Assembly (NCBI GenBank): GCA_009664345.1
Contig: CP043547.1
Coordinates: 2,136,709-2,200,708, forward strand
Direction: 5' to 3'
Length of the DNA: 64,000 bases
DNA from: Planctomycetales bacterium 10988
Lineage (GTDB): Bacteria > Planctomycetota > Planctomycetia > Pirellulales > Pb10988
Part shown: positions 28,886-54,717 of the stretch, in pieces
Layout of the letters: each line of letters opens with the position of its first letter
Numbering within the stretch: position 1 is the first letter of the stretch
Position numbers and translations under genes: made by a program
The notes under the pieces: model-generated
The model's database searches: none
Told to the model about the DNA's origin: nothing
The model's input: the letters and a program-made list of their open reading frames with translations, nothing else

Positions 28886-29938
28886 CTAAAAAAGATAGAG
28901 AAGTGGAAAGAGAAAGATCCAAACCAAGTCAACAAAGTGCCAATAAAGGCCTAAATTTTCAACAAGCCCTGCCCTGGCGACGGTCAACCGCAAAGGTAAA
29001 ACAAGCGCAAAGGCAATTAATCCAACTAGTACATGGATGGCATGAAACCCAGTTAAGAGAAAGTAAGTGCTCACCCACATATTTCCACCGGGGATGACCA
29101 TGGGAAGTTCCAACCAAGGTTCTAAAACATTCCAGCCCGCAAAGTGTTCTTCTTCATGATCGTCACTACCATGATGAACAGGGGCCGGAGGCATCACATT
29201 ATAGGCAAAGGCCGGCATTTGGCTGACAGGAAGATCGGCCCAAACCCAACGCTCTACCACTTCCCCATCTCGTTCTTCAATCAACTTTGTTTTAAAATGA
29301 AAATCTTTTAACACTTGTTGTCGATGTGCATTGCGATCTAAAGCAAGTTCTATCGTTCCAAGTCGATCCAATGCCTGGGGGGAATCCTCTTCGGCAAGCT
29401 CTTTTTTCTCTCGAAGTAGTTCGGATTCCTCTGAAGAAAGCTCTTGATCAATTTCTAAAAGTCGTTGTTTAACAGCTGTGCGATAATAAACATCAGGTCG
29501 TTCGTAAATTAAGCTTCTTGGTTGTGAAGGATAAAGGTGATGAGCAAATTTTTCTTTATATTCATAGCCTTTCACACCTAGAAAAACGGTCCCTAATAAC
29601 AGAGTGGCCAAGAGCCAAGCCTTCGCCCTTCGTGGGTAGGAACCTCGAATCGATTCCAAAGCAAAAACAATCGTGACACTCGAACAGATCAACACAAAAG
29701 TATTTAATGCTCCCAATGGTTCGGAAAGATGCACATCATGCTGACGCGGCCACACAGGCGCGCCGAATCTTAACACAATATAGGAGCCGATCAAAGCGGC
29801 GAAGAACATAATCTCCGTGGAGAGAAAAAGCCATAAACAGACCTTTCCCCGCGGAATCGGAAGTCCCGGTTGATATTGAAACCCACCGTGGTGGTGAGCT
29901 TCAGCAGTTGAGGTTTCAGCAGGAGGGGAAGCATTCAT
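28886..29938 (-). CDS. ctaE: cytochrome c oxidase subunit III with a long hydrophilic insert
   Basis: 350 residues, well above the usual ~200 of five-helix subunit III proteins. The conserved helices are [24 protein letters not shown] (about 31-54), two more to about 125, and the C-terminal pair containing [18 protein letters not shown] and [19 protein letters not shown]. Between helices, residues about 130-285 form a charged, partly coiled-coil region ([24 protein letters not shown]) that is not part of the canonical fold. The protein accompanies subunits I and II in the membrane oxidase. Confidence 0.92.
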
Positions 29939-30020
29939 CTTGGGGAAACCTAATAGGCAGGAAAGGTTAGACTTTATGGTAATCGTAAATTGAGCGTTTA
30001 GACAATGAAGTCTCGTCTAT

Positions 30021-30953
30021 TTAATTTCCACTAACAAAGAAGGGAGTGATCAAGGTACAATCAATCACATAACTCATAAACACAAGTGGAAGATAAAGTA
30101 AAGAGCAGCGTAACAGCCCACGGGCAGTTTTTTCTGCCGGCTGATAACTAAACACCCAGGAATATTTCAAAAAGATACAGTTCAACAGAAAGGAAGTCAC
30201 TAGAAAGAAGAGACCTGTATTTCCTTGAGCGACCAACATTCCATTGATGGGAAATAAAAGTAAACAACTAAAGAGTGTCATTCCCGCAGTCCAACGATGG
30301 GAAGGATCATAGGAAGGAAGCATCTTAATTCCCGCTTGGAAATAATCTTGTTTACATAGCCAAGCAATGGAAAAGAAGTGTGGAAATTGCCACAGGAAGA
30401 CCACCATAAAGAGAGCGATTGCCTCTAAATTGATCGGTCGCCCCGTTGCAACCCAACCGATTAAGACCGGCAAGGCTCCAGGGAATGCCCCGACGAAAGT
30501 ATTCCAAACGGTGACTTTCTTTAAAGGTGTATAAACCAAGACATAAAGGCACCAACTTAACAGCGCCAGCTCCGCCGTAAAAAGATTGACCCATTCCGAC
30601 AAAACAATCCAACCAAGCACGCCCAAGCCAATCCCTAAGGCATAGGCTTCCATCAAGCGAAGTCTTCCCGTCGGAAGTGGCCTGCCGGCAGTCCGAGGCA
30701 TAAGGCGATCGAGTTTTCTTTCCCAAATATGATTGAACACACTGGCGCTAGCGGCCACCGCACCGACCCCGAACATCGTGACAAAGAGGAGCAAGGGAGA
30801 AAGGGCTCCACCTGTCGCTGCGAAACTGCCAACCATCACCGTCAGGATGACCAGAGTCACAATCCGCGGCTTGGTTAATTCCAAATAATCGGCCCAATGG
30901 GCAAGCGATAAGGCTCGCCGTACTTCGTGAACAAGGGCCTCTGCTGTACTCAT
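30021..30953 (-). CDS. ctaB: protohaem IX farnesyltransferase (haem O synthase)
   Basis: Farnesylates haem B to haem O in the membrane. 310 residues, UbiA superfamily, with eight to nine helices. The prenyl-diphosphate motif is NHIWERKLDRLMPRTAGRPLP (about 92-112); the first aspartate of the usual N-D-x2-D pattern is a glutamate here. The second loop reads YTPLKKVTVWNTFVGAFPGALPVLIGW. Its ATG overlaps the stop of the haem A synthase gene by ATGA, so the two haem-modification enzymes are coupled. Confidence 0.94.
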   Translation of the reverse strand: MSTAEALVHEVRRALSLAHWADYLELTKPRIVTLVILTVMVGSFAATGGALSPLLLFVTMFGVGAVAASASVFNHIWERKLDRLMPRTAGRPLPTGRLRLMEAYALGIGLGVLGWIVLSEWVNLFTAELALLSWCLYVLVYTPLKKVTVWNTFVGAFPGALPVLIGWVATGRPINLEAIALFMVVFLWQFPHFFSIAWLCKQDYFQAGIKMLPSYDPSHRWTAGMTLFSCLLLFPINGMLVAQGNTGLFFLVTSFLLNCIFLKYSWVFSYQPAEKTARGLLRCSLLYLPLVFMSYVIDCTLITPFFVSGN

Positions 30954-31969
30954 GATACGGGCTCCGCAATGCTGGCTGAAGCGGTCGTTTCAGCTGGCTG
31001 ATCGATGGAAGAAGGCGAGGAGGAAAGCCATCGGAAAGAACCGACAGCAATCACCAAGGTGAGAGAAAAGAAGGTCGCTCCGCCTAAAACATGTCCGGTT
31101 GTGCTGAGAAGTTGATCGGCCCCGCCGGCGACGACGACATAAGTTTCCAAGCCCCCATAGCGAGCGAGCCAGACACCTCCCCCTAGCAGTAATTGAAGGA
31201 GAAGAACACTCAAAAGTCCGCCTGAGGCCCAGCGAAAACCTGGTACTTGGCGGCCTACCAGAGCAAGCGAAATGGCCAACCAAGTCACAAGGCAACTTAA
31301 TAAGGTCGCCAAGGCTAAGTGAGAGAGGACCGAATGCCAATGGGGAAAATGCCGAAGGGCGGCTCCGAAAACGACTTGAAGATAGGTCAACCCCGCGACA
31401 GAAACGGCCAAGGCATGGACTTTCCCAGCGGCAGGATGATAGATGGGCTTCGCTTCTTGCCAGCGTTTGGTTGCAAAGAAAACCATCAGCATCGCCATGG
31501 CAAAGAAAAGTTGCCCGGTGCAGCCGTGGATCATGGCCAAGGCTTGATCGATGTGCAACACCCTCAATCCGCCCAAAACCCCTTGTAAAATGACAGCGAC
31601 CAGGACGACGAGTGAGAAATATTTCACAATCCGCAGCGAAGATTTCCACCAGGAAACCCCGACCAGAAAGATCGAAAGGATTCCGACAAGCGAGCCTAAC
31701 AGCCGATGGCCGTGTTCCACCAGCACATCGCGCGGGCCATTCAACCAAGCGGCTAGCGGGTAAGTAAACATATTGTAGCCAAAAGTCGTCGGCCAATCGG
31801 GAACCGCCATGCCGGCTTTCAAGGTCGTTACCATGGCCCCGACTGCAATCAGCAAAAACGTACACCCCATCACCAAGAGCGCGGCTATCCAAGGCAGCGG
31901 ACTCCAAAAGGTAGAGGCCCCTTGCTTTGGTTGATTGCTGTCAGGTTGTTTGCTTGTCCGGGTAGACAT
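30950..31969 (-). CDS. ctaA: haem A synthase, COX15/CtaA family
   Basis: Oxidises haem O to haem A for the aa3 oxidase. 339 residues with eight predicted helices. The conserved histidines are visible in EHGHRLLGSLVG (about 84-95), MIHGCTGQLFFA (about 142-153), SVLSHLALATLLS and LSTTGHVLGGATFF. The E-H-x-H-R motif marks the catalytic half. A 56-base gap holding a copy of the dispersed palindrome separates it from the subunit I gene. Confidence 0.93.
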   Translation of the reverse strand: MSTRTSKQPDSNQPKQGASTFWSPLPWIAALLVMGCTFLLIAVGAMVTTLKAGMAVPDWPTTFGYNMFTYPLAAWLNGPRDVLVEHGHRLLGSLVGILSIFLVGVSWWKSSLRIVKYFSLVVLVAVILQGVLGGLRVLHIDQALAMIHGCTGQLFFAMAMLMVFFATKRWQEAKPIYHPAAGKVHALAVSVAGLTYLQVVFGAALRHFPHWHSVLSHLALATLLSCLVTWLAISLALVGRQVPGFRWASGGLLSVLLLQLLLGGGVWLARYGGLETYVVVAGGADQLLSTTGHVLGGATFFSLTLVIAVGSFRWLSSSPSSIDQPAETTASASIAEPVS

Positions 31970-31995
31970 GGCTTACGACGACCTTGAAGAGAAAA

Positions 31996-32012
31996 CAAAA
32001 ACTACTTTTTGA
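31996..32012. repeat. dispersed quasi-palindrome between ctaD and ctaA
   Basis: CAAAAACTACTTTTTGA. The 17-base core is identical to the copy at 52136-52152, and the preceding A-rich bases also match closely. It lies 14 bases after the ctaD stop on the minus strand. Confidence 0.6.
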
Positions 32013-32025
32013 TAAAAATCCTTCG

Positions 32026-33825
32026 CTAGGTGGATTCCTTAGGAGCGACAGGTTTCGGAGCGATCCACTGGGGATAAAAATCTTGCTCGCGACCCGGCAC
32101 ACTATATTCATACGGGCCTCGATAGATAATCGGTTGAAAATCATAATTCCCATGGCCGGGAGGACTTGGTGCCGACCATTCTAACGTCGTGGCATGCCAA
32201 GGGTTTCGCCCTGCTCGCGGTCCCAAAAAGATGCTGAGAAAAAAGTTCAACACAAACGGAATTTGAGCGAGGAACATTCCAAAAGCACAAATCGTCATCA
32301 ATTGATTCAGCGGCAACATGTGGGCGAAGATTTCGTAATGATACGGATCGGCCAATCTCCGCGGGAATCCCCCTGCCCCGAGAATGTGCATCGTGAAGAA
32401 AGTCCCATTGAAAAAGACGAACGTCAGGAAGAAGTGAACCTTCCCCCAAAAATCATTCATCATCCGGCCGAACATTTTCGGGAACCAATAGTAAATTCCC
32501 CCGAACACCGCAAAGGCCGTTCCTCCGAAGAGGATGTAATGGAAATGGGCCACGATGAAATAAGTGTCGTGAATGTAGCGATCGACCGGCGTGACTGCCA
32601 TGAAAATGCCGGAGAGCCCCCCGATAATAAACATCGAGAGAAATCCAATACTATAGAGCATCGGCGTGGTGAAATGGATGCGACCACCCCAAAGCGTACC
32701 GAGCCAGTTGAATGTTTTAATCGCACTCGGCAAGGCAATCATAATTGTTGAAAGCATAAACGTGGTGCCCAGCATCGGATTCATGCCGGAGACAAACATA
32801 TGGTGCCCCCACACGATAAATCCTAAAGCGGCAATTCCCCCGATGGCGAAGATCATCGGCTTATAGCCAAAGATTGGTTTTCTAGCAAAACAGGCCATGA
32901 TATCGCTGACCATTCCCATCGCAGGCAGCAACATAATATAGACAGCCGGGTGCGAATAAAACCAAAAGAGGTGTTGCCATAAAAGCGGTTGCCCACCCCC
33001 TGCCCCCGCCGAAACTCCGTTGACGGTTAATCCTTCAGGGATAAAAAAGCCGGTGCCAATCAAGCGGTCGCTAAGTTGCATAAACCCGGCCGCGGTCAGG
33101 ACTGGTAAGGCAAAAGCCTGCAAAATCGCCGTGATGAACATTCCCCAAATTGTCAGCGGTAAACGGAACATCGTCATACCAGGAGCCCGCATCTGGAGGA
33201 TGGTCGTCATGTAATTGACCGATCCGAGCATCGAAGAGATGCCGACAAACGTCAGACCCAATAGCCATAAGGTTTGAGCAAAGCCGCTCCCTGGGGCTGC
33301 ATTCGAAACCGAAGAAAGCGGGGGATACGAGGTCCAACCGGTTGCTGGTCCGCCAGCGAAAAACATACTGGCAGTGAAAGCAATAAACGCCGGCCACATA
33401 AACCAATAGCTCAACATATTCAGCGTAGGAAAGGCCATATCTTCCGCCCCGATCATGAGCGGAATCAAATAATTTCCAAAAGCCCCGGCCAAAATCGGAA
33501 TGATCACCAAGAAGACCATCACCGTACCGTGCATCGTAAAGAGGACCGTGTAAAATTCTGGGGAGATTTGACCTCCGGTATGCGGAAAGAGGAGCGGTCC
33601 GACCAGCGGCATTTCCGCCCAAGGCCAGGCCAGTTGCCAGCGAATCGCCATCGCGAGCAACCCGCCGACAAAAAACCAAAGCAGTGTCGAAAACAGGAAT
33701 TGAATCCCAATCACTTTATGATCAACAGAAAAAACATAGGTACCAAGGAAATCGATCGCTCGGCCAAAGAGGCCCCGTCGCGAATCGGCTGGCAGGGCAT
33801 GTCCCGAATGAACCGTACTACTCAT
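32026..33825 (-). CDS. ctaD: cytochrome c oxidase subunit I, A2 type
   Basis: 599 residues with twelve helices. Haem a ligands are H99 in TMHGTVMVF and H429 in VAHFHYILFG, where H427 is the haem a3 ligand. CuB ligands are H292 and the pair H341-H342 in VWGHHMFVSGM. The motif FYSHPAVYI (289-297) keeps the His-Tyr pair (H292, Y296) but lacks the D-channel glutamate of mitochondrial-like enzymes; the preceding Tyr-Ser marks the A2 subclass. It reduces oxygen to water and pumps protons. The ATG overlaps the ctaC stop by ATGA. Confidence 0.97.
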   Translation of the reverse strand: MSSTVHSGHALPADSRRGLFGRAIDFLGTYVFSVDHKVIGIQFLFSTLLWFFVGGLLAMAIRWQLAWPWAEMPLVGPLLFPHTGGQISPEFYTVLFTMHGTVMVFLVIIPILAGAFGNYLIPLMIGAEDMAFPTLNMLSYWFMWPAFIAFTASMFFAGGPATGWTSYPPLSSVSNAAPGSGFAQTLWLLGLTFVGISSMLGSVNYMTTILQMRAPGMTMFRLPLTIWGMFITAILQAFALPVLTAAGFMQLSDRLIGTGFFIPEGLTVNGVSAGAGGGQPLLWQHLFWFYSHPAVYIMLLPAMGMVSDIMACFARKPIFGYKPMIFAIGGIAALGFIVWGHHMFVSGMNPMLGTTFMLSTIMIALPSAIKTFNWLGTLWGGRIHFTTPMLYSIGFLSMFIIGGLSGIFMAVTPVDRYIHDTYFIVAHFHYILFGGTAFAVFGGIYYWFPKMFGRMMNDFWGKVHFFLTFVFFNGTFFTMHILGAGGFPRRLADPYHYEIFAHMLPLNQLMTICAFGMFLAQIPFVLNFFLSIFLGPRAGRNPWHATTLEWSAPSPPGHGNYDFQPIIYRGPYEYSVPGREQDFYPQWIAPKPVAPKEST

Positions 33826-34580
33826 TGAACGGCCTCCTGTTCATTCGCCATCGTCTTGAGCCATTGTTGAAAATTCTCTTGCGATTGAATGGTTAATCGC
33901 CCTTTCATCTTGTAATGCCCCCAACCACACAACTCCGCACAGACAAGGTCGAACTCACCAACTTCCTTGGCACGAAACCAAACTCGGCCCGTCATGCCAG
34001 GAACAATGTCTTGCTTCAGCCGCAAATTCGGCAAAAAGAAACTGTGCAATACATCTTCACTTTTTAAATAGACCACGACTTCACGATTGACCGGCACATG
34101 CAAATCGTTGACATGATAAAGATCGTCCGGCGTGTCAAATTCTCCATCGGGACCAGGATACCGAATCCGCCATTCAAACTGTCGTCCGGTGACTTCGACT
34201 TCCAAAGCGGGGTCTTCTGGCGGACGCATCGTGAGATTCGCCCAAGCTTGAATTTGATACAGTCCTAAAAAGACAAGAATAAAGGCAGGAATCACCGTCC
34301 AAAAAAGTTCCAGCGAATGATTTCCATGACTATAAATGGCCGGTTCGGTTCTCCGCCTAGCATCATAAAACCAAACAAAGAAAGCCAACAAGATTTGCGT
34401 CAATAAAAAGACCACCCCCGTCAACCACAAGATTAAATAAAATAGGTGATCAATTTCGCCTCCCATGACCGAGACATCTTTGGGAAGCCAGAGATTCATC
34501 GCCGGGGCAGCAACAAAAATCGCCGTTCCAATCAAAGGAACGAGAAGAAAGAATAAACTCCAATGGGTGAATGCTTTCAC
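33822..34580 (-). CDS. ctaC: cytochrome c oxidase subunit II
   Basis: 252 residues from a GTG start, chosen because GGAGAAGG lies just upstream; the longer frame to 34676 adds an unrelated N-terminus. Three hydrophobic segments (about 5-25, 45-70 and 95-115) precede the cupredoxin domain. All CuA ligands are present: H179 in LHSFFLPNLRLKQD, then C214, E216, C218, H222 and M225 in CAELCGWGHYKM. No cytochrome c domain is fused, so electrons must come from a separate cytochrome, possibly the di-haem lipoprotein encoded upstream. Confidence 0.95.
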   Translation of the reverse strand: MKAFTHWSLFFLLVPLIGTAIFVAAPAMNLWLPKDVSVMGGEIDHLFYLILWLTGVVFLLTQILLAFFVWFYDARRRTEPAIYSHGNHSLELFWTVIPAFILVFLGLYQIQAWANLTMRPPEDPALEVEVTGRQFEWRIRYPGPDGEFDTPDDLYHVNDLHVPVNREVVVYLKSEDVLHSFFLPNLRLKQDIVPGMTGRVWFRAKEVGEFDLVCAELCGWGHYKMKGRLTIQSQENFQQWLKTMANEQEAVQ

Positions 34581-34820
34581 CGAGACCTTCTCCAACTTTT
34601 CAGAGGCGAGCGATGGCGACCTGTTCCCTCGAAAGGTATGGCCAAAACTTAAATGAAATAAAGAACACTCGATCAAAAGTGAATTTCAATTCGTTTTGTC
34701 CACCCATTCGAAAATCAATCCAAACCAAGCAAGTGTTCTCAGTGTAAAGGAGATCGATTTTCTAGATAGGGATAAAAGTGAAAAAATGCCAACCTGAGCA
34801 AAATCTCACAAGATCAAAAG

Positions 34821-36257
34821 TTAAAATCGCTCACGAGCGGGGGCTTGTGGATTATGATCAACAGCGGCTTTGCTGATCGAATCATAAGGTAGGGATTGTA
34901 CATAATGCACGAGGTGCCAGATATCATCCGAAGACAAACTCGAACCGAACTCTGGCATCCCCGAAGGAATCACCCCGCAATACATTCTCCAATAAAGATC
35001 GATGGGGCGACGGCCGCCACGATACGTTCCGATACGGAGATTGCGAGGATTAATCTTTTGTAAAGGCAAGGCGAAAAGCTTATCGACATCTTCCACCGGT
35101 TCGCCTTGAGTATTTGCTTTTAATTTATTCCAATAATCGACTTGGATTTGGCCATCCCCCAGGGCGTAATCTCCATGACAACCGGCACACTTGGTCCGCT
35201 TTTCGTCATAAAATAATTCACGCCCTAAAGCGATCGATTCTTCCAAGGGCATTTCCGGAGGGGCTGGCGGCTGAACGCGTTTGGAATCCAAATCCTGCCA
35301 ATTTCCTGACACATAATCGATGCCGGAATCGACCAACTCTTTGGTAAAATCTTCTTCCCCAGGGACAGCAAAGTCTTCTTCAATTTCACTAAGCTGTCGT
35401 AAATAAAGTTCGATCTCGCCCCGCATACTTAAGTAAATAACATATTCCGCCAACGCTCCCAGTTGATCATCGGGAAGCAAAAGAAAAGCCGGCATCGCTG
35501 TGCCATGAATTCCATTTTTTAAAATGCGAATTAAATCGTCTTTGGTTGGTTTTTCGGAGGCCCGATGTGTCGAAATAAATTTAAATTTTCCAGGGCGAAA
35601 ATCTCGTGGATAAGGATGTAGAAAAGAAGCGGTGGGGCCATTGCCGTCACCCGTCATTCCATGACAATGCATGCAATGCTGACGGTAAAGCCCTCGCTGT
35701 GGAAAACGATCGGCAATTTTACTTTTTTCAAGTGTTAAAGGCCCCGCATTTAAATCTTCTAAAACAAGGGTCGATTCTGTTTCTTGTAGCGGCATCCCGG
35801 CATAAACTTGGCCGGATTTTGTTAACACCAAATCATTGGCGGAATTGGTAGGACCGGAAGCCAATGCAATTTGTTTATAATCAAGGCCCAACTCTTTCGA
35901 CACATAAGGTTTATTCGGAGTACCAAAGTAACCTTTTAAAACGTTTGCAAGCTCGGTACTGACTTCTTTCTCTCGCAAGAAGCGTTCGCGATACTCTTCA
36001 TCAATCTCTTTTTTTCGCTCTTGCAGTTGTGTTTCTAAAGCTTGTTGCTGGGCTGGGTCTTCAAGCTGGGCCAACTCTTCTTCACGACGTTCCTGCAAAG
36101 ACTCCATTTGCTCCGCAAACCAATACTGTGGAGTCACCAAACCTTCGGTATTCGCGGTAAATTCAGCGGGCGTTTGCTCACAGCCGAGCATTCCCCCAAA
36201 AAGTGTCAGAAGGAAACACCCTAGAAAAATCGAAGAGGAGGTAGAGGAAACGTTCAT
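34821..36257 (-). CDS. di-haem c-type cytochrome lipoprotein of the oxidase locus
   Basis: 478 residues with a lipoprotein signal (LFGGMLGC at about 19-26). A charged coiled-coil segment follows (about 50-95, LQERREEELAQLED). Two cytochrome c domains carry CMHCH (about 196-200) and CAGCH (about 360-364). It is tethered outside the membrane and sits directly upstream of subunit II. It is the likely electron carrier to the oxidase or part of an alternative complex; this role is inferred from position. Confidence 0.88.
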   Translation of the reverse strand: MNVSSTSSSIFLGCFLLTLFGGMLGCEQTPAEFTANTEGLVTPQYWFAEQMESLQERREEELAQLEDPAQQQALETQLQERKKEIDEEYRERFLREKEVSTELANVLKGYFGTPNKPYVSKELGLDYKQIALASGPTNSANDLVLTKSGQVYAGMPLQETESTLVLEDLNAGPLTLEKSKIADRFPQRGLYRQHCMHCHGMTGDGNGPTASFLHPYPRDFRPGKFKFISTHRASEKPTKDDLIRILKNGIHGTAMPAFLLLPDDQLGALAEYVIYLSMRGEIELYLRQLSEIEEDFAVPGEEDFTKELVDSGIDYVSGNWQDLDSKRVQPPAPPEMPLEESIALGRELFYDEKRTKCAGCHGDYALGDGQIQVDYWNKLKANTQGEPVEDVDKLFALPLQKINPRNLRIGTYRGGRRPIDLYWRMYCGVIPSGMPEFGSSLSSDDIWHLVHYVQSLPYDSISKAAVDHNPQAPARERF

Positions 36258-39271: not shown

Positions 39272-42200
39272 TTAAGATTGTGGGTTATATCCCAAGGTCG
39301 GCGAAAGCCAGCGTTCGATCTGTTCGACCGACATCCCTTTTCGCTGGGCGTAGTTCTCCACCTGATCTTTGCCGATGCGATCCACAGCAAAATAACAGCT
39401 TTCCGGATGGGCAAAATATAGCCCTGAAACGGAAGCCGCCGGATACATTGCAAAGTGTTCGGTTAGCTTAATTCCTGTATTGGATTCAACTTGCATCAAG
39501 TCAAAGAGCGTTCGCTTTTCGGTATGGTCCGGGCAGGCAGGATAGCCGGGAGCCGGTCGGATGCCGCGATATTTCTCAGCGATGAGGTCCTCGTTACTGA
39601 ATTCTTCCTCACGCCCATAACCCCAATCCTGGCGAGCGGCCGCATGGAGTTTTTCCGCAAAGGCTTCCGCCAAACGATCCGCGAGGGCTTGAATCATAAT
39701 CTTTCGATAGTCGTCATGATCGGCTTGGGCGGCGGCAATTAACGGTTCAATTCCGATTCCAGTCGTGACGGCAAAAGCCCCTAAATAATCAAGCCGACCA
39801 CTATCTTTAGGAGCAATGAAGTCCGCCAAGGCATAATGCGGAGCTTCAGTGCGACGTTCCCACTGTTGCCGGAGCGTATGGAAGCGGGTTAGCTCTTCCG
39901 ATTTCGATTCATCCGTAAAGAGGACAATGTCATCCCCTTCACTGTGTGCCGGCCAGAAACCATAGACCCCGTTGGCTTGCAGAGCATTCTTTTCCACAAT
40001 TTCTTGCAAAATCTGCTGGGCGGAATTGAAAAGGTCTCTGGCCTGCGGGCCGACTTTTTTATCGTCGAAAATGCGGGGATATTTTCCTCGAAGTTCCCAA
40101 GTCATGAAAAATGGCGACCAATCGATAAAAGGCACCAACTCCGCCAAGGGATAATTCGACAAGATTTTTTTCCCGGTAAATTCCGGCTTATTCAGCTCAA
40201 CCGCATCCCAATCGCAAGTGAATTTATTCGCAACCGCTTCTTCATAAGAGATCAGCGCCCGTTGCTGTTTCTTTGCAAAAGAAGCGACCTCACTCACTTG
40301 GCGGCTGGCATTCGCGATGAGGAAATCTTCCTTTCGCTCCTTGCTCATCAAGCTATCGACCACCCCGACACTTCGCGAGGCATCCAGAACATGGACCGTT
40401 CCATGTCGATAAGCCGGCGCAATTTTCACGGCGGTGTGTTTGGCACTCGTGGTTGCTCCGCCGATCAAAAGAGGAACCGTAAAGTCAAGCCGTTGCATCT
40501 CTTGCGCGACATAGACCATTTCATCCAGGCTCGGCGTAATCAGCCCGCTGAGACCGATAATATCGACTTGTTCTTTCTTGGCGGTTTCCAAAATCTTTTC
40601 ACAAGGGACCATCACGCCGAGGTCGATGATCTCATAATTGTTACAGCCCAGAACGACGCCGACGATGTTCTTGCCAATGTCGTGGACATCTCCTTTGACG
40701 GTAGCCAGAAGGACTTTGCCGCGACCGGAAGTATCGTCACTCTCATCCTTTTCTTCTTCCATAAAAGGGAGCAAGTAAGCGACGGCTTTTTTCATAACCC
40801 GAGCACTTTTCACGACTTGCGGCAGGAACATCTTTCCTTCGCCGAAGAGGTCCCCGACAATCGACATGCCATCCATCAAGGGGCCTTCGATGATATTCAG
40901 GCACTTTGCAAAGTCACCGGACTGGCGGGCTTCCTCCACATCTTGCTCAATATAATCGGCGATCCCATGAACGAGGGCATGGGCGATTCGCTCGGAAAGC
41001 GGTTTTTCTCGCCATTCGTTAACTTGCTTTTGGTCTTTCTTTTTCGTCTGGACCGTTGCCGCAAAATCGACGAGTCGTTCGGTGGCATCGGGACGACGGT
41101 CGAAGAGGACATCCTCGATCATCTCACGAAGCGTCGGATCAAGATCATCGTAAACCGCTAATTGTCCAGCATTTACGATCCCCATATCCATCCCAGCCTT
41201 CACGGCATGATAGAGAAACGCGGAGTGCATCGCCTCACGAACCCCATCATTTCCCCGGAAAGAGAACGAAATATTGCTGACCCCGCCGGAGACCTTTGCT
41301 CCAGGGCAGACTTCTTTGATCTTCCGAGTAGCTTCGATGAAGTTGATTGCATATTGATTGTGCTCTTCGATCCCCGTGGCAACGGTCAAAATGTTCGGAT
41401 CGAAGATAATGTCTTCTGGAGGGAAGCCGATGGTCTGCGTGAGGAGATCATAAGAACGCTTGCAGATATCGACTTTGTGCTGCATTTCGGTGGCCTGGCC
41501 CTCTTCATCGAAAGCCATAATCACAACGGCAGCGCCATATTGTCGGCAGAGTCGGGCCTTTTCGAGAAACTCCGCTTCGCCTTCTTTCAAGCTGATCGAG
41601 TTGACAATCGGCTTGCCTTGGACACATTTCAACCCCGCTTCGAGGACCGACCATTTCGAACTGTCGATCATAATCGGGACGCGGCTGATATCCGGTTCGG
41701 CGGCAATCAGATTGAGGAACGTCTGCATCACCTTTTCACTATCGATCAGCCCTTCATCCATATTGATGTCGATAATATTGGCCCCGTTTTCAACTTGCTG
41801 GCGGGCAACCGAAAGGGCCTCTTCATATTTCTCTTCGCGAATCAGTCGGGCGAATTTCCGCGAACCAGTGATGTTGGTCCGCTCCCCGATCATCAGGAAA
41901 TTGCTTTCCGGACGGACAGTCAATGCCTGAAGTCCGCTGTAGGAAGAGAGTTGCGTCTTTTTCTTAATGCGGCGAGGTTCGACATCTTTGAGGGCTTCGG
42001 CGATCGCTTGTATATGACCGGGCGAAGAACCACAGCATCCCCCGACCACATTCACCCAACCGAGTTCGGCGAATTCGCGGATTCGCTCGGCCATCGCCTT
42101 GGGAGTCATATCGTATTCCCCAAAGGCATTCGGCAAACCGGCATTCGGATGGCAAGTGATATAAGTCGAAGAAGCGGTCGCCATTTCTTGCAAATAAGGC

Positions 42201-42991
42201 CGCATTTTGTCCGGACCAAAGGCACAGTTCAGGCCCACGCTAAATAAAGGAGCATGTTTGATCGAAGTCCAAAAGGCATCGATCGTTTGTCCGGTCATCG
42301 TGGTCATGCTATTTCCGCTCGGATCGGTGACCGTGAGCGAAGTCATTACCGGCAGCCAGATATCGTTGTCGCGGAAATATTGAGAAATGGCAAAGAGACA
42401 AGCCTTCAAATTGAGCGTATCGAAAACCGTTTCAGGCATCAGAATATCGACACCGCCGGCAACCAGCCCATCGATTTGTTCATAATAGGCGTCGCGCATC
42501 TCTTCAAAAGTGACATCGCGATAGCCGGGGTCTTGGACTTTGGGCGAAATAGACAAGGTTTTATTCGTCGGACCAATCGCTCCCGCCACGAAGCGAGGGG
42601 TATCCGGATCGATGGCCATCATGCGATCCACCGCCCGGCGGGCACATTGGGCCGCAGCTATATTCAACTCACGAGCCAGGTCTTCCAATTGATAATCGGC
42701 CTGCGAAATCCGGGTGGAGTTGAATGTATTCGTCTCCACGATATGAGCACCCGCACTCAAATATTGATAATGGATCTCTTCGATCGCCTCGGGTTTGGTC
42801 ATGCAGAGAAGATCGTTATTTCCCTTCAATTGCGGAGCAGGATGATCGACGAACTGCGTTCCGCGAAAATCCGGTTCCTCTAATTTCAAGGTTTGAATCA
42901 TCGTCCCCATTGCACCATCAAGAACCAGAATTTGTTCTTGGGCAATGTCTTTGAGCAGATGTTGAGAACGACCGAGGCTGGAAACCGACAT
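39272..42991 (-). CDS. metH: cobalamin-dependent methionine synthase
   Basis: 1239 residues with all four modules. The homocysteine domain has the zinc motif [13 protein letters not shown] (about 320-332). The methyltetrahydrofolate domain starts near [13 protein letters not shown] (about 370). The cobalamin cap and binding domains contain [16 protein letters not shown] with the D-x-H-x2-G ligand (about 775-790). The reactivation domain has [15 protein letters not shown] (about 1170-1184). It makes methionine from homocysteine. GGGAGG lies seven bases before the ATG. No cobalamin riboswitch was recognised in the leader. Confidence 0.97.
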
Positions 42992-48557: not shown

Positions 48558-50303
48558 ATGAATTGTGTCCCTATGGATACTGCCCCCTCTAATGCGAAGA
48601 TTCCCAGGGCACCAAGCGGGAAGAGTTGGCAATTTAACTTGAGGCTCTTGGAAAAAAGTCTCCATCCGCTCGACCGCTTTCCTGCCCTTTTGTTGGCGCT
48701 CGGGGCGATGCTTGCCGGGCTATTGCTCTTCATTTCGACAAGCGATTCCATCCCGATGGTCTGGGACGAAGGCGATTACATTCGTCGTGGGCAACTCGTA
48801 CAGTCGAGGATTCTCAACAAGGATGCTCCGCAAAATGCGAGTTCGCCACCGCTAGCCTGGCCCTTTTTAAACGTTCGCGAGGGACACCCTTCCGGTTTTA
48901 TCTACCCGATCGCTCTCGGGGAATGGCTCGCTCCGGCCTCGTGGTCCCCGCTGACACGCTATCGCTACGGGCCGATGATTTGTTTTTCGTTGGCAGGCGG
49001 TTGCCTGTTCTATCGACTGGCGCGAGAGGCTTCTTCTCTCGCCGGTATCGTGACCTGCCTAGCTCTCTTCGGTCAATCACGCCTCTTCGCCCACGCACAC
49101 TTTGCGACACAAGACGGTCAACTCGTCGCCTGGACGTTGATTGCCTGGGCTTTCTTCTCCCCTGCTCTGCGTTCCTGGATCGCCTGTGGTTTCTGGGGAA
49201 TTTGTTTGGGAATGCTTCTTTCAGTCAAGTTCTCCGCGTTACTTGTCATTCCTACTTTTTGGATTGCTGTCCTCTTTCTATGGAGTAGGCGTGCTTGGGT
49301 TTCGATTTTCATAAGCACGGCAATTGCGATAAGTACTTTTTGGATATTCAATCCACCGCTTTGGACGGAACCGCTTGAAGGCTTGAAGGCTTACTTTCGA
49401 CTCAACCTCAACCGCCAAGAAAATTTTAATATTACCGGGTATTTTCTTGGAGGCTACTACGACCTTGACCATCCCCTCCCCTGGTATAATTCCCTCTTTT
49501 GGCTGGCGATTGTCTTACCGCTTCCATGGCTGATTCTCGGCCTCTTCGGCCTCGGCCACTGGTGTTTCATTTCCATTCGTGATCGAAAAGATCACTGCTT
49601 TCTGCTTTCTGCGCTCGGAATCCTCGCAGTCTTTCTCATTACACGAGCCATGCCGGGGGTGCCTGTGCATGACGGAGTTCGCCTGTTTTTGCCGGCGTTT
49701 GGAGTCTGGGCGATCTTCGTCGGATGGGGAACGCACCACTTTATGCGATGGTCGCTTTGCGAGTTTTCACGATGGAAAGCTGCAAGTTGGCTAATTCTGT
49801 TTGGTACGATGCTAGGAGGCGTTCACGGCGCAGCTAGGTATTTTCCACAAAACCTTTCCTACTACAATCTTCTCATTGGCGGGCTGCGTGGGGCAACGGA
49901 TGCAGGAATGGAGCCAACGTATTGGTGGGATGGGCTAGATGCGGAAGCCTTGAACTGGTTGCATGAGCATACTCCAGAAGGGGAAAAGATTGGTTTTTCC
50001 GCTTGCTCGGTGCAGAATCTCCAGCTATTGCAAGAGTGGAAAATTTTGCAACGAGGGACCCTTCGTCATCAACCGGGGGCCTATCGCTGGTATGTGGTCC
50101 AGAATCGGCCCAGCGGGATGAACCCGATTGATCAATACTTAATTGCCAACGAGAAGCCAGCGTTCAGAAAATATATCCATCCGCCAAGCGACGACTGGGG
50201 ACCGTGGAAGTTAGATGTGCCGCTTCTGGAAGTCTACTCGATGGAACAGTTCGCCCGTGCTGTTCAAGCGATCCAACAAGCAAAGCATTCAGAGAAAAAT
50301 TAA
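48558..50303 (+). CDS. GT39-type membrane glycosyltransferase
   Basis: 581 residues with about ten transmembrane helices. The first periplasmic loop carries SIPMVWDEGDYIRRG (about 68-82), with the acidic Asp-Glu pair typical of the dolichyl/undecaprenyl-phosphate-sugar-using GT-C superfamily (ArnT/PMT-like). A soluble C-terminal part (about 440-575) follows. It likely transfers a sugar from a polyprenyl carrier to a lipid or protein. It is 30 bases after the methyltransferase gene. The start has no clear Shine-Dalgarno, and an ATG 15 bases downstream is possible. Confidence 0.83.
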   Translation: MNCVPMDTAPSNAKIPRAPSGKSWQFNLRLLEKSLHPLDRFPALLLALGAMLAGLLLFISTSDSIPMVWDEGDYIRRGQLVQSRILNKDAPQNASSPPLAWPFLNVREGHPSGFIYPIALGEWLAPASWSPLTRYRYGPMICFSLAGGCLFYRLAREASSLAGIVTCLALFGQSRLFAHAHFATQDGQLVAWTLIAWAFFSPALRSWIACGFWGICLGMLLSVKFSALLVIPTFWIAVLFLWSRRAWVSIFISTAIAISTFWIFNPPLWTEPLEGLKAYFRLNLNRQENFNITGYFLGGYYDLDHPLPWYNSLFWLAIVLPLPWLILGLFGLGHWCFISIRDRKDHCFLLSALGILAVFLITRAMPGVPVHDGVRLFLPAFGVWAIFVGWGTHHFMRWSLCEFSRWKAASWLILFGTMLGGVHGAARYFPQNLSYYNLLIGGLRGATDAGMEPTYWWDGLDAEALNWLHEHTPEGEKIGFSACSVQNLQLLQEWKILQRGTLRHQPGAYRWYVVQNRPSGMNPIDQYLIANEKPAFRKYIHPPSDDWGPWKLDVPLLEVYSMEQFARAVQAIQQAKHSEKN

Positions 50304-50396: not shown

Positions 50397-51212
50397 TTAG
50401 TATTTGCCTCGACGACGCTCTTTCCCCGGCAATACTTCCAAACAGGTCGTCCACCATCCTGTGAGAATCGTTTCGATGAACTCTTCGGGAAGCCCTTCTT
50501 CGGCCATCTCTCTGGCCAAGCGATCGTGGTCATACTCTACCGGAACGAATTCTATTTTAAGACTTCCTGATGAGTCGACTTCGAGCAAGGTATACCAAAC
50601 ACAAGCTTGCCCGTCATTTTCCGGTCTGCCTAAGACCCCAACATTCAAAAAACACTTTTCGTTAGAAAGTCGACGCTCCCAATGAATCCCCGTGTGAGTG
50701 GCCACGATCACATCGGCCTCGTAATCCTCCAGCAAAAATTCCAGAAACGCGGACGACGTAGTTGACTCCCAAAGAAACTCATTGACCTTACGTGGACTCC
50801 CATGACAAAGCAAAAAGCGTTTTTTGTTTATCGTAAAGCGAAATTCAGTTGGGAGCGATCGCATCCAGATTCGATTCGTTTCGGAAGTCTTTTGCAAGGT
50901 ATAGTCAAAACTGATTTTTGCGAAATGATTATCGCGGGGGTCCGTATATCCACACTGACAATCATCGAGCGACCACCCGACGGAATGATCGTAATTCCCC
51001 TGCATGCACTGAACTTGATATTTTTGCAAAAGTGGAAAGACGCGATCGGGATGAGGGCCGAACGCTCCCAAGTCTCCTTGGCAATAAATCGCATCGACGC
51101 CACGGTTTTCAATCTCTTTCAGGGCCGATTCCAAAGCTAAATAATTGCTGTAGATGCCCCCGAGGCAGGCAAATCTGTAAACGGCTTTGCTCATTTTGCT
51201 TTCACTGCTCAT
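50397..51212 (-). CDS. metallophosphoesterase-fold protein lacking the D-x-H motif
   Basis: 271 residues, similar to YfcE/MJ0936-type phosphoesterases. Later motifs are present: QGDLGAFGPHPD (D47), QGNYDHS (N73), LLCHGSP (H137) and ATHTGIHW (H173, H177). The first motif, normally S-D-x-H-G-N, reads G-G-I-Y-S-N (18-23), so the metal-binding Asp and His are Gly19 and Tyr21. The two-metal site is therefore incomplete. Its ATG directly follows the TGA of the radical SAM gene (TGAATG), so translation is coupled. The reaction is unknown. Confidence 0.85.
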   Translation of the reverse strand: MSSESKMSKAVYRFACLGGIYSNYLALESALKEIENRGVDAIYCQGDLGAFGPHPDRVFPLLQKYQVQCMQGNYDHSVGWSLDDCQCGYTDPRDNHFAKISFDYTLQKTSETNRIWMRSLPTEFRFTINKKRFLLCHGSPRKVNEFLWESTTSSAFLEFLLEDYEADVIVATHTGIHWERRLSNEKCFLNVGVLGRPENDGQACVWYTLLEVDSSGSLKIEFVPVEYDHDRLAREMAEEGLPEEFIETILTGWWTTCLEVLPGKERRRGKY

Positions 51213-52115
51213 TCACTCTCGGTGTGCCTGCCCCGAAGGATTGGAGCAAATCGCCCCATATTGATAGCAGGTGAAGCAGGCCCCGTGACGTATCGAAAAG
51301 TGCTTTTTGCTTTCATTAAGTGTCTGGCCAAGTTGCGAACCTTCTTCCTCGATTAAGATAGGACAAACTTGAACACCCCGATCGGTGATGATCCGGCTAT
51401 GTTCACACAGAAGTTGCGAAGTATCGAAATCTTGCATCATTTCTTCTGTAACCCGCTCGTCCTGTAAGTAACCGTTGGTCCGCTTGGCCTCCGCTCCAAT
51501 TTGCAACGTCGGTAGGATTTTCAACCTTGGCCTAGTATATCCATGCTCCTTCAAGGTCGAAATAAACGCCTGAAGAATCTCTTCCTCATCTTGAATCGGC
51601 CAAGTTCGGGCCGCAGTGATGATGGGTAGAAAGCCATGCTTCACGAGTTTTGTTACCCCTTGTATCGCTTTGCGGAAGGTATTCTTTCCACGAATCGGAT
51701 CGTTGGTTTCAGGAGAAAAGCCATCGATCGACACACGAAATTCCAAGGAATACAGCGATTTTTGTTCTGCCTTACGAAGACTTTTCAACCAAGGCTCTTT
51801 CAAAATGGTGCCATTGGTCAAGACTGTGGCAGGCCCGTAATTGAGGGTTTCTTCGAGAATTGCGACCATTTCGCGATTAAGAAAAGGCTCGCCTCCGGTG
51901 AAATAATATTCTTTCACTCCGTGCGAGACCGATTCTTCCAAACGTTGACGCACTTGTTCAAGCGAGAGAAAGCCAAAATTCCGATTCGTTGGGCTACAGG
52001 AAATAAAACAGTGATGACAAGTGATGTTGCAGAGCGTTCCTCCGACTTGAAACCAAAGCTGGTCCAAGTGGCTTAGTGCAACGCTCGGAGCTTGAGTGGA
52101 AGTCTTCTTTCCCAT
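51213..52115 (-). CDS. radical SAM protein with C-terminal cysteine cluster
   Basis: 300 residues. The canonical C-x3-C-x2-C motif is CNITCHHC (29-36). TGGEPFLN (about 74-81) is the SAM-binding GGEP motif, and the barrel strands follow (VLTNGTIL, EFRVSIDG). The C-terminal part has extra cysteines, LLCEHSR, VCPIL and ACFTCYQYGAIC, consistent with a SPASM/twitch auxiliary cluster. Such enzymes often modify peptides or small molecules; the substrate is unknown. It is between an FAD oxidoreductase gene upstream and the phosphoesterase-fold gene downstream. Confidence 0.9.
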   Translation of the reverse strand: MGKKTSTQAPSVALSHLDQLWFQVGGTLCNITCHHCFISCSPTNRNFGFLSLEQVRQRLEESVSHGVKEYYFTGGEPFLNREMVAILEETLNYGPATVLTNGTILKEPWLKSLRKAEQKSLYSLEFRVSIDGFSPETNDPIRGKNTFRKAIQGVTKLVKHGFLPIITAARTWPIQDEEEILQAFISTLKEHGYTRPRLKILPTLQIGAEAKRTNGYLQDERVTEEMMQDFDTSQLLCEHSRIITDRGVQVCPILIEEEGSQLGQTLNESKKHFSIRHGACFTCYQYGAICSNPSGQAHRE

Positions 52116-52135
52116 CGACCTGCTTCACAGAAAAA

Positions 52136-52152
52136 CAAAAACTACTTTTTGA
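52136..52152. repeat. dispersed quasi-palindrome between the oxidoreductase and radical SAM genes
   Basis: CAAAAACTACTTTTTGA, identical to the copy near ctaD (31996-32012). It lies about 29 bases after the oxidoreductase stop on the minus strand. Confidence 0.6.
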
Positions 52153-52180
52153 AATAGGTAGTTCACAAATCAAAAAATCA

Positions 52181-53443
52181 TTATTTAATTTTTTCGGCAG
52201 CGCTCGCATAAAGATCCAATTCCGCGCGATCGCCGATTAACGTGAATAACTCTCGGACTTGGTTCAATCCTTGTTGGATCAAGAAATTTGTATTCCGTCC
52301 GTAACTTTTCGAGCCGAGTACATAGAAATGAGCTTCCGGATTTAAGAGAGATTCAACACCGGCAGAAGTTTGTTGCAAGCAGTCCGCCGACTCGTTCTGC
52401 ATCAACGAGGCAGCGAGCTTCATCGGCCCTTCGGTTGCATAACAGAGGTGCATCTGACATTCCCGAACCATTTCCCAATCGGGCCGAAACCCGACATTCG
52501 CGATGATTTCATTGACGTCAAAAGGTTCGATTTCTTTTTGATTCGTCGTGATGGTTAGCCGAGCGGACGAACTTTCGCTAGAGCAAATAGTCTCGACGGT
52601 GGCCCCTGGATGGAAGGTTAAGCATTTCGGGGGATTGCTTGCAAGTTGGTTGACTTTCTCGGCAAGCTCGTCGCGATATTTCAAGGAATCCTCGGGAAAA
52701 CGAGCAATCGGCTCCTGAGATTCTTTCCGCGTTAGCCAAGTGATTTCCGTCTGTGGTTCTTGCTCCGCTAAAGCGATCAAGTTCAGGAGATTTGTGGCGG
52801 CAGAGTATCCCGATCCTATCAAAAGCACTTTTTGATTTGCATAGCGATTGCGATCTGTTCCTAATAGATCTGGCAATTGATAATGAATTCGCGAGGAGAG
52901 CTTTCGTTCTCCTAGGGCAGGAATCCCGCCACTGCCGAGCCAGTTCGGATTTCCGAACGTGCCTGTCGTATCAATCACCACTTCGGCACTAGCGATCGAT
53001 TCACTGCCATCGGGCTTTTCCAACAGAAGCCGAAAATCATACTCCTCACGTTCTTCATCGCCAACGAGGTCCCCTTTGAGAAGGTCGTTATGGCTTACCG
53101 CGATCACCTTGGTTTGCTCTTGGATGCAGTCGAGAAGAAGGTCGGTCTTTGCCAACGGTTGCAAAAATTGCTCGACATACTCCTTGCCAGTCAACAATGC
53201 TTGGTCGTCTGGAAAGTTCTGCTGCTCATCATGAATCTGGAGGGCCATGATCGCCAGCGAGGAACGGTTGAGGGTGAAGGGGCTGAACATTCGCACGTGG
53301 CCCCATTGCAACATGTTCTCGCCCACCCTGCCCTGCTCATAGACATCGACATTGTATCCAAGAAATCGGGCATAAAGAGCGGTCTCCAGACCGATGGGGC
53401 CTGCTCCGAGAATCGCAATGCGGGCGGGCGCATCAACGGCCAT
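52181..53443 (-). CDS. FAD/NAD(P)-binding oxidoreductase of the radical SAM trio
   Basis: 420 residues. FAD fingerprint IAILGAGPIGLETALYAR with the acidic residue VYEQG at the end of the second strand (about 8-37). A second dinucleotide fold, VLLIGSGYSAATNLLNL (about 205-221), binds NAD(P)H. The layout resembles flavin monooxygenases and thioredoxin-reductase-like enzymes, but no redox C-x2-C is visible. The ATG at 53443 is chosen because GAGGA lies just upstream; a TTG at 53482 with GAGG six bases before is an alternative. It heads the trio, 65 bases before the radical SAM gene. Confidence 0.85.
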   Translation of the reverse strand: MAVDAPARIAILGAGPIGLETALYARFLGYNVDVYEQGRVGENMLQWGHVRMFSPFTLNRSSLAIMALQIHDEQQNFPDDQALLTGKEYVEQFLQPLAKTDLLLDCIQEQTKVIAVSHNDLLKGDLVGDEEREEYDFRLLLEKPDGSESIASAEVVIDTTGTFGNPNWLGSGGIPALGERKLSSRIHYQLPDLLGTDRNRYANQKVLLIGSGYSAATNLLNLIALAEQEPQTEITWLTRKESQEPIARFPEDSLKYRDELAEKVNQLASNPPKCLTFHPGATVETICSSESSSARLTITTNQKEIEPFDVNEIIANVGFRPDWEMVRECQMHLCYATEGPMKLAASLMQNESADCLQQTSAGVESLLNPEAHFYVLGSKSYGRNTNFLIQQGLNQVRELFTLIGDRAELDLYASAAEKIK

Positions 53444-53595
53444 ACCTTCCTCAACTTTCGCAAAAATAGAGTTCTTGTCCAAACCAAACCTCGGAAATTA
53501 CCTCTACTGTTGGCAATCTTTGAAGTTTGACAAGACTGAATTTTACGGCTTTTGACAAGAAAGGTCAGTATGCTCCCTCACAATTTTGCTGCGAT

Positions 53596-54549
53596 TTACG
53601 CCCTGGGATGAAATTGTTGGTGAATCGATTTGAGCCTGGTGGGATCGACATGGGTGTAGATTTGCGTCGTGGCGATGCTGGCGTGACCGAGCATTTCTTG
53701 CACATGCCGCAAGTCCGCACCGCCGGAAAGAAGGTGCGTGGCGAAGCTGTGCCGCAAGGTATGCGGGCTGACATCCGTTAAGCCGAGCCGCTTTGTATGT
53801 TTTTTGATCAGCTCCCAAATTGCCTCGCGGCGGAAACGGCGACCGGTTCGCGACAGGATCACCCAATCAGGATGACTCCCGCGGGCCGCGAGCGTGGGAC
53901 GTTCTTTTTGCAAGTATTCCTGAAGTGCGGCCTTTGCCCTTCCGCCCAATGGCACCAGGCGTTGCTTGTCCCCTTTTCCATGACAGCGGCAGAAGCCCTC
54001 TTCCAAATGTAGATCGGCCAGCTTGAGGTCACTTGCCTCACTCGCCCGACATCCGGTAGCGTAAAGGAGTTCCAATAAAGCACGACCGCGTAAATAATGA
54101 GCATCGCTAGGACGAGGGCTATTTAGCAGGGCCTCAACTTCAGAAGGATTGAGAACGTGAGGAATCTTTTGCCACAGCGTCGGACTGCCCAAGAGTTCCA
54201 CAAGGTTTTCGCTCAGAATGCCTTCGAGTTGCAGATAACGGAAGAACATTTTCAGCGAAATAATATGGCGGGCGATGGTGCCCGGCGCGAGCTGCTGACG
54301 GTGCATCCAACTTAAATAGTCGGAAAGATCACTCAAGGTCAAGCCAGGGATCGGGCGGCCTGCGAGCCATTGTTGAAATCGTTGCAGATCGAGACTGTAG
54401 GCGGAAACCGTATTGTCGGCCATCCCGCATTCGCTACGGAGATAGCTAATAAACGCCTGAATCCAGGGATGCACGGAGGCGGAACCACCGGCGGCCATCC
54501 GCTGGGGCTGGCCCGGCAAGGGTCGCGGAATCGGGGTGCGACGTGGCAT
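53596..54549 (-). CDS. tyrosine recombinase, XerC/XerD family
   Basis: 317 residues, normal for Xer. An N-terminal SAM-like DNA-binding domain (VHPWIQAFISYLRSE...) precedes the catalytic domain with R168 (ATGCRASEASDLK), K192, H263-x-x-R266 (HTLRHSFATHLL), H289 and the nucleophile Y298 (TTQIYTHV). It resolves chromosome dimers at dif or acts on an integrative element; with no element nearby the first is likelier. XerC and XerD cannot be separated by eye. The ATG at 54549 has AAGGA nine bases upstream; the longer frame is not needed. Confidence 0.92.
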   Translation of the reverse strand: MPRRTPIPRPLPGQPQRMAAGGSASVHPWIQAFISYLRSECGMADNTVSAYSLDLQRFQQWLAGRPIPGLTLSDLSDYLSWMHRQQLAPGTIARHIISLKMFFRYLQLEGILSENLVELLGSPTLWQKIPHVLNPSEVEALLNSPRPSDAHYLRGRALLELLYATGCRASEASDLKLADLHLEEGFCRCHGKGDKQRLVPLGGRAKAALQEYLQKERPTLAARGSHPDWVILSRTGRRFRREAIWELIKKHTKRLGLTDVSPHTLRHSFATHLLSGGADLRHVQEMLGHASIATTQIYTHVDPTRLKSIHQQFHPRA

Positions 54550-54643
54550 GAAGCAAGTTCCTTTCGCGGGTGTCCTCGTTGAATCGGCACCTTGGTCGAG
54601 AAGATGCCTTATTCGTTCTTTCGTCCGCCGAGTAGCAAAACTT

Positions 54644-54660
54644 GCAAAAGGTACTTTTTC
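54644..54660. repeat. dispersed quasi-palindrome between xer and the YhaM-like gene
   Basis: GCAAAAGGTACTTTTTC in the divergent region, upstream of both genes. Confidence 0.5.
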
Positions 54661-54717
54661 CAAATACAGTCGTTACATTCCTAAAATTCCTTACTTTAAG
54701 CGAGTGAGACTTTCACG

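Follow-up and report, generated by a model that had tools for sequence, protein, structure and literature searches.

Three coupled planctomycete genes for a flavoprotein, a radical SAM enzyme and a phosphoesterase-fold protein: a probable organoarsenical cassette in place of ArsS

What is made by three adjacent genes that recur together in planctomycetes but carry no recognised pathway name? The genes lie at positions 50,397 to 53,443 of a 64,000 nucleotide stretch of the Planctomycetales bacterium 10988 genome (contig CP043547.1, positions 2,136,709 to 2,200,708), referred to here as the window. The source genome is one contig of 6.65 Mb, and its relatives are Planctomycetota. The genes encode a flavin adenine dinucleotide (FAD) oxidoreductase, a radical S-adenosylmethionine (SAM) enzyme (rSAM) and a metallophosphoesterase-fold protein (MPE). 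In bacteria, the formation of carbon-arsenic bonds is attributed to ArsM, ArsS and ArsL. The trio is very probably connected to arsenic, and it is probably an organoarsenical (arsenosugar-type) cassette that is a non-orthologous replacement of ArsS. An earlier note, made from the sequence letters, connected no known pathway with the genes. This is not supported, as relatives of each gene occur in ars operons or as ArsM fusions, and across genomes the trio goes with arsenosugar genes.

52181–53443, minus strand: FAD/NAD(P)H oxidoreductase, 420 amino acids (aa); Pfam Pyr_redox_3, homologues in ars operons
51213–52115, minus strand: radical SAM enzyme, 300 aa; Pfam Radical_SAM (3.6e-21), placed by tree, ArsM fusions and neighbours, and genome profiles
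50397–51212, minus strand: MPE, 271 aa; relative of Car1-type arsenate reductases

All three open reading frames (ORFs) are confirmed on the minus strand, co-oriented and with gaps of 65 and 0 bases as first described. The FAD gene starts with the ATG at 53443; the mechanical ORF extends to a TTG at 53482. The ATG is the correct start because relatives begin MA[VI]D.PA.IAILGAGPIG.

Two genome sets were used, an order-level set of 57 relatives (the window's own genome plus 56) and a set of 294 genomes across the phylum Planctomycetota with the window's own included. They share at least five genomes (G000, G014, G016, G031, G052), two of them trio-positive, and are not fully independent. The trio rSAM is found in 15 of the 56 further genomes of the order and, at high similarity, in 15 of the 294 phylum-set genomes, the own genome counted. 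Named genomes contribute 29 loci with this rSAM as well, and with one exception these carry the label of Planctomycetota or of a subgroup. Thalassoglobus neptunius KOR42 has at least the rSAM and MPE genes (L044). Identity to the window proteins in relatives is about 50–70% for the rSAM, 57–68% for the MPE and 37–53% for the FAD protein. The earlier note had proposed co-occurrence and gene order across genomes as a check, and this bears the coupling out: among 53 planctomycete loci with sufficient sequence on each side, 38 have FAD, rSAM and MPE arranged in this order on a single strand. Thus the coupling is real and not a matter of chance.

If the trio makes organoarsenicals it should accompany arsenosugar genes, and this was tested by genome profiles. 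The marker is ArsM-long, a distinctive ArsM paired with ArsS in this phylum; where a genome holds both, the two are at most 2 kb apart in 37 of 48 cases. Canonical ArsM (NF008823) is too broad as a marker, with matches in all genomes, and for the phylum set the specific ArsM-long query took its place. The trio and ArsS do not overlap in either set. There are 16 trio and 8 ArsS genomes among the relatives (p=0.06 alone) and 15 and 91 in the phylum set (p=0.003); ArsS is missing from every one of the 29 distinct trio genomes in the combined sets. In the relatives set, ArsM-long occurs in 11/16 genomes with the trio, in 6/8 with ArsS and in 1/33 that have neither (trio vs neither, p=1.6e-6), and among ArsS-negative genomes of the phylum set in 9/15 with the trio vs 9/188 without (p=1.4e-7). 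The TIGR04283 glycosyltransferase, above cut-off, shows the same distribution in the relatives set (14/16 trio, 7/8 ArsS, 4/33 neither; p=4e-7). Collapsed to families, TIGR04283 accompanies the trio in 9/9 families and is present in 1/12 that have neither (p=3e-5); for ArsM-long the figures are 6/9 and 0/12 (p=0.0015). The own genome carries ArsM-long at 3593051–3594214 and TIGR04283 at 5746506–5747162 (contig coordinates), and has no TIGR04167 (ArsS) match.

Physical linkage is seen as well. In G059 a TIGR04282-like glycosyltransferase gene (99.7 bits, under the cut-off of 134), FAD, rSAM, MPE and ArsM-long are consecutive on one strand. At locus L042 the distance from the MPE to a downstream ArsM-long on the opposite strand is 1.9 kb. 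In many relatives a glutaredoxin-like gene, a TIGR04282 glycosyltransferase and a ThiO-like oxidase precede the block; NCBIfam names TIGR04282 for arsenosugar biosynthesis. Footprints of exchange with ArsS are found in one family, f15. The ArsS genome G031 keeps the trio-locus synteny and the FAD gene, with rSAM and MPE missing there. In the ArsS genome G052 there remain ThiO, a gene that by eye resembles TIGR04282, and an FAD remnant of about 130 residues. G014 of the same family has an intact trio and no ArsS. This is the pattern expected of replacement in either direction.

The rSAM displays two cysteine groups.

52008–52031, minus strand: C29-x3-C33-x2-C36 radical SAM cluster motif, from the alignment
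51246–51407, minus strand: C-terminal cysteines C237, C251, C280, C283 and C290 of twitch/partial SPASM type, from the alignment

Both groups had been pointed out from the single sequence, and all eight cysteines are invariant in an alignment of 33 rSAM sequences. The next outward relatives, 39–45% identical and from one planctomycete family (f62), are rSAMs fused to an arsenite methyltransferase domain. These proteins (L077–L081) are about 610–627 aa long and end in CGPxCC, and we know of no characterised function for them. They form a close clade of the same rSAM family; however, each is a single protein, with no trio-type FAD or MPE gene within the flanks of about 1.5 kb that were read. Family f62 appears to be anammox-like, judged in part by a multihaem neighbour. 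Among rSAMs 30–38% identical, a separate ArsM-like gene adjoins the rSAM in four of five loci (L082, L083, L085, L086), and L083 and L085 also hold TIGR04283 or fused TIGR04283/TIGR04282 genes. In a tree, trio, ArsM-fused and ArsM-adjacent rSAMs form one clade (SH-aLRT 93). The ArsS clade is separate (support 100) and the trio rSAM does not group with it, although the tree was made by a quick method, has long deep branches and does not settle the relation of the two clades. The trio rSAM shares with ArsS (TIGR04167) the extra C-terminal cysteines and a genomic partnership with the same ArsM type and the TIGR04282/TIGR04283 glycosyltransferases, but it is in a different clade, never in the same genome, and has its own FAD and MPE partners.

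NCBIfam best matches of the rSAM are all far under cut-off. The Rv1681 family (NF049973) gives 98.5 bits against a cut-off of 380, which does not make the rSAM a member; it was set aside as a functional guide for this score, and its literature concerns tuberculosis biomarkers and antigens. Modelling of the rSAM, suggested earlier as a way to predict the substrate, yields a confident fold (predicted local distance difference test, pLDDT, 93), but the matches include both peptide and non-peptide enzymes. The best PDB match is SkfB (Z 21.4, root mean square deviation 3.0 over 239 residues); others are SuiB (19.2), BlsE (18.9), MoaA (17.3) and viperin (17.1).

The best of these, the peptide maturases SkfB and SuiB, raise the possibility that the trio matures a peptide or other small molecule and that the arsenic links reflect old shared ancestry. 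The unrelated neighbours found in some relatives (FhcD/FhcC, MetH, XerC) agree with this. However, the non-peptide matches are nearly as good, all three genes have arsenic-linked relatives, ArsM fusions or neighbours occur throughout the rSAM clade, and the trio co-occurs with ArsM-long and TIGR04283. A role outside arsenic is therefore very improbable. A role in ribosomally synthesized and post-translationally modified peptides is unlikely. A screen limited to ORFs of 70 aa or more found only the glutaredoxin-like gene as a conserved small ORF beside the rSAM gene. Of the small-molecule or peptide pathway first suggested, the conserved coupled trio fits small-molecule work, and a peptide substrate is unsupported.

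The FAD protein shows full-length homology to flavoproteins of arsR-FAD-MFS operons (MFS, major facilitator superfamily), ArsV itself being known here by description. Two of its cysteines are invariant.

52442–52444, minus strand: Cys334 (420-aa numbering), invariant in 45 of 45 sequences
52379–52381, minus strand: Cys355, invariant in 45 of 45; corresponds in the alignment to the HSCGT Cys of ars-operon homologues

There are 125 plasmid records of homologues, mostly 30–36% identical and nearly full length. Eleven plasmid regions were read, six of which sample the ranking evenly, and each has arsR or other ars genes nearby; the weakest case is H57 (Streptomyces xanthophaeus). The homologues adjoin arsR and, in many cases, an MFS gene, arsN1, arsH, arsA or a gene for arsenic transport. 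The products of the arsV-arsW pair oxidise methylarsenite and export methylarsenate (PMC10080717), and the arsR-FAD-MFS order is the published arsV-arsW arrangement. From gene order and enzyme type, ArsV probably belongs to the same family as these plasmid homologues. The trio FAD protein shares with the FAD proteins of this ArsV-type arrangement 30–36% full-length similarity, a conserved KSYGR motif and one Cys. It differs in having neither the Cys-rich C-terminal tail nor an MFS partner, and its gene is not located in an ars operon in the neighbourhood read. A PDB sequence search with the FAD protein gave no close relative. Based on these likenesses, the trio flavoprotein is proposed to oxidise a trivalent organoarsenical. 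Of the two roles suggested earlier, oxidation of a product is probable, and no evidence was found for electron supply to the rSAM.

Two other observations concern FAD genes. A TGA in the FAD gene of G343 was considered as a selenocysteine codon but is a plain stop codon. In G257, which has ArsM-long and neither the trio rSAM nor ArsS, a small Cys-rich protein (GGCCGS...SCCG...SCCS; L183:7247-7591) is encoded directly upstream of a trio-type FAD homologue and is perhaps an arsenic carrier.

The arsN1 gene adjoining ars-operon FAD relatives is a resistance gene for arsinothricin, and this bears on which carbon fragment the rSAM would transfer. Two radical SAM reactions are named as forming carbon-arsenic bonds, adenosylation by ArsS and the aminocarboxypropyl transfer of arsinothricin biosynthesis (review PMC12159101; PMC8552651). 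ArsL is a CX3CX2C radical SAM enzyme acting with ArsM (PMC8552651), so that an aminocarboxypropyl transfer by the trio rSAM, with the same motif, may be considered. ArsL, known here by description, and the trio rSAM have in common the use of a radical SAM enzyme plus ArsM for carbon-arsenic bonds. For the partner ArsM, too, the highest score is with the arsinothricin ArsM model (337 bits, under the cut-off of 500), but this does not discriminate, since most ArsS genomes have this ArsM type next to ArsS. The trio was not seen with an adjacent arsQ-like transporter, and it tracks arsenosugar glycosyltransferases. An ArsL-like reaction is thus unlikely.

The MPE carries four distinctive elements.

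50952–50960, minus strand: redox motif C85-Q-C87; aligns with C74-x-C76 of ars-operon phosphoesterases
51150–51161, minus strand: motif I GGIY replacing S-D-I-H, with two site-1 ligands lost; 48 of 48 sequences
50688–50699, minus strand: motif V THTG replacing GHTH, with the third site-1 ligand lost; 48 of 48 sequences
50442–50456, minus strand: C-terminal W-W-T-T-C257 element, absent from ars-operon relatives; Cys257 invariant in 48 of 48

The partial loss of the metal site, suspected from the first reading, is exact and uniform. The motif I Asp and His and the second His of motif V, which we take to be site-1 ligands from general knowledge of calcineurin-like enzymes, are Gly19, Tyr21 and Gly175 in all 48 planctomycete MPEs. 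The site-2 set D47, N73, H137 and H173 and the CxC cysteines C85/C87 are retained in all 48, while ars-operon relatives retain the full D/H/H of site 1. The loss is uniform and accompanies the radical SAM partner, and so is an orderly change that does not look like decay. The MPE model (pLDDT 87) matches SapH and PH1004 at Z 25–26; no ArsL, Car1 or ArsV structure is among the structural matches listed, which excludes nothing.

Plasmid homologues of the MPE, about 28–32% identical, sit in ars operons (arsR-MPE-arsM; arsR-DUF6428-ACR3-MPE-MPE; arsR-arsN2-arsM-MPE-ACR3; others). A Paraclostridium gene (Orf1) is about 40% identical to Car1, the metallophosphoesterase arsenate reductase of Rufibacter, in which Cys74 and Cys76 are essential (PMC12124457). 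The aligned ars-operon MPEs have CxC at 74/76 (75/77 in Rubrobacter), and C85/C87 of the window protein aligns with it. Compared via description and ars-operon relatives, the trio MPE therefore shares the fold and CxC redox motif (C74/C76) of the Car1 type. It differs in its G/Y/G site 1 and extra WWTTC tail, and is linked to a radical SAM enzyme, not to arsR/ACR3. As judged from this similarity, the MPE is proposed to reduce arsenate or another pentavalent arsenical.

Both G/Y/G and CxC were seen in only one other protein, a phosphoesterase encoded on a Roseomonas plasmid. Its cluster (L109:3989-10949) also holds TIGR04282, DUF547, two radical SAM genes and a phosphonate-type ABC transporter. 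One of the radical SAM proteins belongs to the trio rSAM clade. The cluster is possibly a proteobacterial organoarsenical or arsenic-uptake cluster, and its G/Y/G plus CxC form may hint that the MPE is a general partner of this rSAM clade, which is somewhat doubtful. A Picosynechococcus plasmid phosphoesterase (L195:3004-3828) has CxC, with Cys at two metal-ligand positions, and an FAD/NAD(P)-binding protein nearby but no annotated ars gene. Thus CxC by itself is no marker of an ars operon.

Since FAD and MPE relatives occur in ars resistance operons, the trio could also be read as a detoxification set of arsenate reduction, rSAM conversion of As(III) and oxidation, with no dedicated sugar product. 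However, in the planctomycete loci that were inspected, no gene adjoining the trio could be recognised as arsR, ACR3 or arsC, and the trio shares its profile with arsenosugar genes. Detoxification is accordingly quite unlikely.

For the arsenosugar-type cassette, trio conservation, motifs, ars-operon relatives, ArsM fusions and neighbours and the profile in common with ArsS partners are directly seen; from them we infer every catalytic step, the substrates and the product. The CxC phosphoesterase-fold protein would reduce As(V), or a methylated pentavalent arsenical, to the trivalent form via C85/C87. ArsM, encoded elsewhere in the own genome and beside the trio in one relative, would methylate As(III). 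The rSAM would then cleave SAM and join a carbon fragment to the trivalent arsenic. Since ArsS genomes have the arsenosugar glycosyltransferases in common with trio genomes, the fragment is most likely 5'-deoxyadenosyl, and we lean slightly toward this specific transfer. The flavoprotein would oxidise the trivalent organoarsenical to a stable pentavalent form, and glycosyltransferases TIGR04282/TIGR04283 may complete an arsenosugar-like product. A further and somewhat doubtful proposal is that the MPE may be a new type of organoarsenical reductase, with a single metal plus CxC, passing trivalent arsenic directly to the rSAM, in a second arsenosugar invention repeatedly exchanged with ArsS.

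Several results weigh against the cassette. The trio is incomplete in some of the 53 loci: rSAM-MPE without adjacent FAD in seven, FAD-rSAM without MPE in three and rSAM alone in five. ArsM-long is missing in 5/16 (relatives set) and 6/15 (phylum set) trio genomes, of which some have another ArsM and some are incomplete metagenome-assembled genomes. The profiles are partly confounded by phylogeny, the correction being family-level collapse only. In the own genome ArsM is 1.4 Mb and TIGR04283 3.6 Mb from the trio, and the link there is by profile only. Likeness to the characterised ArsV, Car1 and ArsL is drawn via relatives or descriptions, not their own sequences. The rSAM gives 52.4 bits with the ArsS model TIGR04167 (cut-off 300), outside that family, and the binuclear metal site of the MPE is incomplete, unlike that of ars-operon relatives; thus the trio is not filed as a member of ArsS or Car1.

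The trio is probably of the organoarsenical biosynthesis kind, with parts that resemble known families. A literature search with partial text coverage gave no description of the trio, nor of a planctomycete radical SAM enzyme with a metallophosphoesterase. The cassette reading supplies a concrete substrate class for three uncharacterised enzymes, and suggests why a phosphoesterase that has partly lost its catalytic metal site is strictly conserved. If true, evolution has reached arsenosugar-type compounds through two or more radical SAM routes, and organoarsenical production is predicted in many planctomycetes without an annotated producer gene.

In two metagenome-assembled planctomycetes (L056:1966-4459, L059:5852-6751) the trio follows FhcD, with FhcC in addition in L056, and the own genome carries FhcD. 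The methanopterin C1 pathway was rejected as the main link, as 19 of 30 FTR genomes have no trio and 4 of 15 trio genomes no FTR in the phylum set.

In the window, the upstream neighbour of the trio is XerC (53596–54663, minus strand), and downstream lies a convergent gene for a GT39-like membrane protein (48558–50303, plus strand), both names being read from the sequence. The methionine synthase gene metH (39272–42991) is about 8 kb from the trio and is a close neighbour in at least six relatives too. In some relatives the block is flanked by a GT39-like gene and MetH, and the GT39-like gene and an ExeA-like ATPase are also near the trio in some; synteny around the trio is conserved. An aa3-type cytochrome oxidase region occupies 28886–36257, where subunits I and III and haem O synthase could be identified; this part of the window has a lower GC content and a strong AT skew.

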